Below the pieces are notes generated by a model. The model searched no databases. It worked only from the letters and a program-made list of their open reading frames with translations, and was not told the origin of the DNA. From assembly GCA_011045915.1 (NCBI GenBank), contig DSBT01000061.1, positions 1 to 36,232 on the forward strand: a DNA stretch of 36,232 nt, read 5' to 3'. Every line of letters begins with the position of its first letter. The first letter of the stretch is position 1. The stretch is from Mesotoga infera (GTDB taxonomy: Bacteria > Thermotogota > Thermotogae > Petrotogales > Kosmotogaceae). Both the position numbers and the translations under genes were made by a program. Of the stretch, positions 1,967 to 2,344 are shown in pieces.

Positions 1967-2076
1967 CTCTTCACTTCCCTTCTTGCTTTCTAGATCAAAT
2001 GAGTGTAGTACCTAGCATGAAGGATAATATCATGATTTGAAGCCAGTCTGCAGGTTCATGGAAGAATAAAACAATA

Positions 2077-2160
2077 GACGCAAGGCTGGGCAAGAACGGC
2101 CCAGGTCGCAATGCCGGCTAAGAACATGCCGGGACGCAAGGCTGCCTTCGGCAGGAGGCC
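2077..2160. repeat. Three tandem 28-bp hairpin modules with covarying stems
   Basis: Units at 2077-2104, 2105-2132 and 2133-2160 each open with a 9-bp linker GWCGCAAKG (W=A/T, K=G/T) at exact 28-bp spacing. Each linker is followed by an inverted repeat: CTGGGC/GCCCAG (2086-2091 with 2099-2104), CCGGC/GCCGG (2114-2118 with 2128-2132) and CTGCC/GGCAG (2142-2146 with 2150-2154). The first two loops share AAGAAC. Units 1 and 2 match at 19 of 28 positions, and two differences are paired and keep the stem intact (T-A to C-G; G-C to C-G). The third unit keeps the linker but has a shorter TTC loop. Function unknown. Confidence 0.8.
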
Positions 2161-2167
2161 TTCTCAG

Positions 2168-2195
2168 GTCAACCGTCAACAGTCCACCGTCCTCC
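2168..2195. repeat. Four tandem 7-bp repeats, GTCAACC type
   Basis: The stretch reads as consecutive heptamers GTCAACC, GTCAACA, GTCCACC and GTCCTCC. Array length is 28 bp, the same as one hairpin module just upstream. No coding sense is evident. Confidence 0.7.
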
Positions 2196-2202
2196 GAATT
2201 GG

Positions 2203-2235: not shown

Positions 2236-2299
2236 AACCAGGTTCTCTTGCTCTTTCCTACCCGCGACACCCAACCCCCCGACCTCGGTCCTCGCGTCC

Positions 2300-2325
2300 A
2301 AAAAAAAGGCCCCGCTAAGGGACCT
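2300..2325 (-). terminator. Rho-independent terminator of infB
   Basis: On the minus strand, AGGTCCC, loop TTAGC, GGGGCCT (7 pairs, one G-T wobble) is followed directly by an unbroken T tract. It starts about 20 bp after the infB stop codon, so infB is the last gene of its operon. Confidence 0.92.
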
Positions 2326-2344
2326 CATTCTTCTATTAGGTAAC

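Follow-up and report, generated by a model that had tools for sequence, protein, structure and literature searches.

What kind of element is the short tandem array at positions 2077–2160 of contig 61 of the Mesotoga infera genome, and is its folded form what is being kept? The array lies in a window of 36,232 nt (the whole stretch of DNA analysed), within a genome of 2.81 Mb in 415 contigs (G000). In the first-pass annotation it was described as three units with a fixed linker at 28 bp spacing, each followed by an inverted repeat, with compensated stem changes around an unchanged loop and a position beyond the infB terminator. The linkers do start at 2077, 2105 and 2133, an exact 28 bp period, with a perfect inverted repeat after each; from unit 1 to unit 2, pair 2 goes from T-A to C-G and pair 5 from G-C to C-G, both sides being altered. 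The constant loop holds for units 1 and 2, which have AAGAAC in common, but not for unit 3, where the loop is a three-base TTC. The terminator is indeed separate from the array, and the locus reads as follows:

2066..2076, plus strand: leader resembling AATAAAACAATA, a sequence also present upstream of the copy on contig C99 of the same genome, with a looser match at C382
2077..2104, plus strand: unit 1, with linker GACGCAAGG (2077-2085), stem CTGGGC/GCCCAG (2086-2091/2099-2104) and loop AAGAACG
2105..2132, plus strand: unit 2, with linker GTCGCAATG (2105-2113), stem CCGGC/GCCGG (2114-2118/2128-2132) and loop TAAGAACAT
2133..2160, plus strand: unit 3, with linker GACGCAAGG (2133-2141), stem CTGCC/GGCAG (2142-2146/2150-2154) and loop TTC (GAA when read on the minus strand), then GAGGCC
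2161..2200, plus strand: spacer module TTCTCAGGTCAACCGTCAACAGTCCACCGTCCTCCGAAT, dispersed, also on contigs C34, C110, C209, C201, C245 and C234 of the same genome
2201..2235, plus strand: fourth, decayed unit, CCAGC/GCAGG with an uncompensated A-A mismatch, and trailing linker GACGCAATGC
2236..2299, plus strand: another dispersed intergenic module (CTCTTGCTCTTTCCTACCC...), with similar stretches on C411, C201 and C137 of the same genome
~2300-2326, minus strand: infB intrinsic terminator, outside the repeat and conserved 3' of infB in relatives without the array (found downstream of infB in G002, G005, G006 and G007)

The 84 nt of the array fold no better than dinucleotide shuffles (z = −0.6 and −0.4 for the RNA fold, −0.9 and −1.1 for the DNA fold), so that folding energy alone would have missed it. 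The linkers are more telling: only four exact copies occur in the whole window, all of them at this locus. This array was absent from the stretches read downstream of infB in eight relatives (in G006 and G008 contig ends are close), and the infB-side copy thus appears to be lineage-specific; in G001 and G004 seemingly ordinary coding sequence lies downstream of infB. The protein encoded at 689-1966 of the window (minus strand), adjoining infB, combines an N-terminal nucleotidyltransferase-like part with a C-terminal NUDIX domain. Among 2.18 Mb of G002 only a weak NUDIX-level match to it was found, and synteny therefore breaks just at the array.

A covariance model trained on 18 units, of the kind that the first-pass annotation had proposed, was run over 10 Mesotoga genomes (G000 and nine others). 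It returned 63 matches in the array's own genome, and copies in six of the nine others (130 in G002, 161 in G006, 156 in G007, 48 in G005, 27 in G008 and 15 in G009), with zero matches in G001, G003 and G004. A linker-N-linker pattern that does not require pairing found the same 7 of the 10 genomes, and its reversed control gave 0. Unit 1 of our array is itself present in G005, G006, G008 and Mesotoga sp. WOFB36. Throughout, a unit consists of a 9-base linker (GWCGCAAKG or GAAGTGAKG) and a short hairpin whose GC-rich stem is variable and mostly perfect; units measure 22–28 bp and are arranged in direct tandem. The family is found mostly between genes (32 of 45 arrays are not mainly within ORFs of 100 aa or more) and is dense in toxin-antitoxin and defence islands. 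In ~85,000 species genomes a strict pattern scan hit 14 stretches. Pairing is complete (5 of 5) in the six that come from Mesotoga sp. WOFB36; the eight from other organisms, which pair at 0–2 of 5, were rejected as chance, leaving no paired copy outside Mesotoga in that scan. One 3.2-kb contig assigned to another genus of the same family (G032:C104) carries one perfect unit in a linker-spacer-linker pattern; it may be a misbinned Mesotoga contig, or a case of transfer. A chance repeat was rejected on the basis of the linker count in the window, the recurrence across the genome and the genus, and the pairing; a coding repeat was rejected since the 28 bp period is not a multiple of 3. The suspicion that the array is REP/BIME-like, i.e. 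part of a dispersed structured family with many copies and stems that are paired yet varied, is thus borne out in its own genome and in its relatives.

The pairing does not depend on how copies were chosen. Stem positions 1 to 5 are Watson–Crick paired in 87–95% (137 of 149 distinct inner sequences, chosen by their linkers alone). For long-loop units the value is 91%, against 56% when arms are shuffled, and, again with linker-only selection, 80 of 116 distinct long-loop units have perfect stems, against 15 after shuffling. Some 14 perfect stem types are found along with about 30 one-off imperfect variants, whose changes are uncompensated. The first-pass annotation had taken covariation as a sign that the fold, in RNA or single-stranded DNA, is what is kept or what drives amplification. 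That stems pair across the family is clear; present-day constraint is another matter. In orthologous DNA of G002 and G007, where the island is ~95–99% identical, 11 of 257 stem sites (4.3%) are changed, against 4.9% in linkers, 5.3% in loops and 4.3% in all other aligned DNA, whose flank sites include coding DNA; one poorly aligned unit aside, the stem changes are one-sided. With equal rates in stems and flanks and changes on one side only, the covariation separates old stem classes and shows no present constraint. Paired changes could have arisen without selection, if one arm were copied from the other during template switching. The family shows clearly, in nature, that stem covariation can exist without detectable present-day constraint, although it is usually taken to prove that an RNA fold is under selection.

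These data bear directly on whether the units act as RNA, that is, as terminators, mRNA-stabilising hairpins or a small RNA under selection on the folded transcript. Covariation between stem classes and the GC-richness of the hairpins are what such a role would lead one to expect, but stems evolve no more slowly than their flanks, and units with one mismatch (6 G-T, 11 A-C and 17 others) show no bias towards G-T, i.e. G-U in RNA, so that selection at the RNA level is unsupported. Furthermore, array orientation is independent of the neighbouring genes (the upstream gene points toward the array in 16 of 45 cases), no Rfam covariance model matched the window at its gathering score, and the array under study lies beyond the infB terminator. 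As intrinsic terminators the units were rejected, given the lack of orientation bias to flanking genes and, in the array sequence inspected, of any T-run 3' of the units. The evidence is against a fold selected as RNA, and we regard an RNA-level element as unlikely.

Single-stranded DNA fits better, because of the loops. Read in the direction of the linker, short loops are mostly C(TNC)G or C(TNNC)G; the opposite strand then has c(GNA)g or c(GNNA)g. The closing pair of the short loops is C-G in 151 of 156. Loop variants affect the middle base in 18 instances and the outer two in 5 (p = 1e-5, stem-loop combinations being counted as independent). Among short inverted repeats, GNA-type loops make up 59 of 105 (56%) in family regions and 14–17%, near background, elsewhere in G002. 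GNA and GNNA loops form extraordinarily stable DNA mini-hairpins (PMC4686876). Under a nearest-neighbour DNA model with standard parameters, triloop hairpins show no strand difference; the DNA signature therefore rests on the loop statistics and on published measurements. In their choice of loop the units obey the stability rules of DNA, not those of RNA, and of the two molecules originally suggested for the fold it is DNA that gains from the comparison; the folded form may drive amplification.

Another hairpin family, whose linker is GGCCAGTC and whose triloops are TNC, is frequently found after the first in the same orientation (e.g. G000:C201:13929-14011 and G000:C234:155-222) and is genus-wide. 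Its stems also covary (CAGGC, CTTTGC, CTCGCC, CACC, CGCAC, CTCTGCC). By pattern it occurs in 9 of 10 genomes, counting a single unpaired match in G004 that is probably due to chance.

How, then, do arrays change? When orthologous arrays of G002 and G007 are aligned, whole units and blocks differ, joined at linkers, and the paralogs on contigs C61 and C99 of G000 are one precise 27-bp unit apart. Units are gained and lost whole, and arrays are mosaics. They look like small DNA that spreads itself or is driven by recombination, more than like a conserved RNA. We consider it fairly probable that this locus holds one lineage-specific member of a non-coding family of modular hairpins, confined to the genus, that is maintained as DNA and remodelled by slippage and recombination. 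Maintenance would operate at the DNA level, where a hairpin with a direct-repeat linker would lend itself naturally to strand slippage and template switching whenever the DNA is transiently single-stranded; whole units would thereby be added or deleted and one stem arm copied from the other, while homologous recombination between arrays of the same orientation would reshuffle arrays and neighbouring genes. A host function is unnecessary to explain the observations. Slippage accounts for the number of units, not for dispersal to new loci, and together with homologous recombination it can explain remodelling, not first arrival. No insertion with a clean empty site was found in orthologous intergenic DNA, since that DNA is a mosaic of other modules. 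Indeed, intergenic DNA of array-bearing Mesotoga is largely made up of dispersed modules (AACTTGCAACTTGG, CCGTTGAACGGTT, GTCATCCTGA..TCAGGATCT, ACCCGCAACCCCCGACC). Arrays also break assemblies, many copies in G000 being at contig ends.

Orientation adds something that plain slippage does not predict. A single array orientation is held across stretches of 30–77 kb that are rich in toxin-antitoxin genes, whatever the direction of those genes: 17 of 17, 19 of 19 and 7 of 7 arrays in three stretches of G006 and G007 and, with genes pointing both ways, 12 of 12 multi-unit arrays at 1.214–1.269 Mb of G002. Counted as units, all agree in G006:C8 (69/69), G007:C8 (72/72) and G007:C7 (27/27), whereas G006:C11 is mixed (8 minus, 3 plus). 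The G002 stretch is a 55-kb island (C1:1213980-1269477) in which the arrays lie among IS110 genes and toxin-antitoxin and defence genes (Pfam assigns PhdYefM/PIN, PemK, AbiEii/AbiEi, HicA, HepT with nucleotidyltransferase, ParE and a TOTE primase-helicase); it is orthologous to that of G007:C8, and the two are not independent cases. Along G002, runs of one orientation exceed chance (p = 0.001), partly via local duplications. Looked at for a possible replication-strand bias, the correlation with local GC skew is 0.2–0.5; array positions are weakly associated with synteny breaks (5 of 19, against 1.6 expected; p = 0.025). Elsewhere in G002, arrays lie within an apparent CRISPR array (C1:1736800-1738100, repeat GTTGCGTAAGAACCATAGTGGTATGGAAAC) and are tandemly duplicated with it, and at ~1.76–1.93 Mb of C1 matching pairs of arrays are offset by ~76 and 86 kb, which suggests that large segments have been duplicated.

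Uniform orientation irrespective of gene direction, island genes of the toxin-antitoxin and defence type, and strand-specific GNA hairpins together recall integrons, whose attC sites are recombined as bottom-strand hairpins (PMC2727003); the arrays would then be single-stranded recombination sites between toxin-antitoxin cassettes. Against this, the integron integrase model TIGR02249 scored over its cut-off in 0 of 10 genomes, which have only XerC/D-like matches, as do all control genomes, and an integron integrase as required partner was rejected. Arrays are also found singly next to housekeeping genes, infB being one, the genes that separate arrays face both directions, and the G002 and G007 islands amount to one locus. 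We hold integron-like cassettes to be improbable. Very unlikely, in our judgement, is a version that dispenses with the integrase, in which the arrays would be recognition sites of a system that recombines folded single-stranded DNA (bottom-strand cGNAg) and so captures toxin-antitoxin and defence cassettes and shuffles them, in fixed orientation, in Mesotoga islands. If arrays do guide recombination, this would help explain how Mesotoga builds such islands.

Dispersal could also depend on a protein acting in trans. Palindromic, intergenic, many-copy repeats are what a RAYT, a Y1 transposase that recognises and moves REP/REPIN hairpins, would be expected to leave, and RAYT-like Y1 proteins of ~250–340 aa are encoded in G001, G003, G005, G006 and G007. 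Their distribution does not track that of the units: Y1_Tnp is absent from G000, G008, G009 and the complete genome G002 with its 130 units, and G001 and G003 have Y1 without units. As a required partner RAYT was rejected and is largely refuted; RAYT-driven movement of the family is decidedly unlikely. For the only RAYT read in context, on G007:C7, the flanking palindrome (AAAATGGGTACAGAC...GTCAGTCCCCATTTT) is not that of the arrays. This RAYT-like transposase (G007:C7:27801-28130) has a REP-type palindrome to itself (GGGTACAGAC...GTCAGTCCCC), with no relation to the arrays. A retro-type small dispersed repeat, moving via RNA and reverse transcription, would match the units in size and in compensated stems, as seen in the small dispersed repeats of Nostoc, and RVT_1 proteins are abundant in G002, where they probably belong to group II introns. 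But G005 and G009 have units without an RVT_1 match and G001 has 18 RVT_1 matches and no units; reverse transcriptase as a required partner was rejected on these grounds, and retro-type movement seems highly improbable.

The small dispersed repeats (SDR) of Nostoc are ~21–27 nt long and share a secondary structure, which compensatory changes preserve although their sequences have little in common. The Mesotoga units, at 22–28 bp and with compensated stems that pair well beyond shuffled arms, resemble them when set against that general description; on the same footing they differ in belonging to another phylum, in forming ordered tandem mosaics with shared linkers and in the GNA-loop signature. 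The promoter of the N4 virion RNA polymerase is likewise a small DNA hairpin with a 3-nt loop and a sheared G:A pair, some of whose stem bases may vary if paired, and it extrudes in supercoiled phage DNA at sub-physiological supercoiling with Mg2+ (PMC4496689); for the Mesotoga units nothing points to a phage RNA polymerase or to use as a promoter. With attC sites the units share strand-specific hairpins and, in islands, uniform orientation between toxin-antitoxin genes, but they are tandem, 22–28 bp long and found without integron integrase.

REP, BIME and REPIN elements are short extragenic palindromes that occur in many copies and in arrays, with the potential to form single-stranded DNA hairpins (PMC3116915). 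The Mesotoga units are also extragenic, palindromic and highly repeated, but the absence of RAYT from G000 and G002, which are among the array-bearing genomes studied in most detail, means no dependence on it there, and the one RAYT read carries another palindrome in its immediate flanks. In build, too, they differ from an inverted REP doublet with its single conserved sequence: the Mesotoga unit joins a linker to one hairpin, units follow each other in direct tandem, and their stems are interchangeable. In the RepRanger survey the repeat columns hold 1,814 and 824 for M. prima, and the REP motifs of Thermotogota are said to resemble no others (PMC12306157, in the portion considered here), so that the presence of palindromes is not new; that portion gives counts, and linkers, modular arrays, stem classes and GNA loops are undescribed in it. 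Within the limited literature searched, there appears to be no description of the modular build, of covariation in the absence of constraint, of the GNA loops or of islands in which arrays keep one orientation. Set beside these systems, the family is a genus-restricted, modular kind of short interspersed palindromic repeats.
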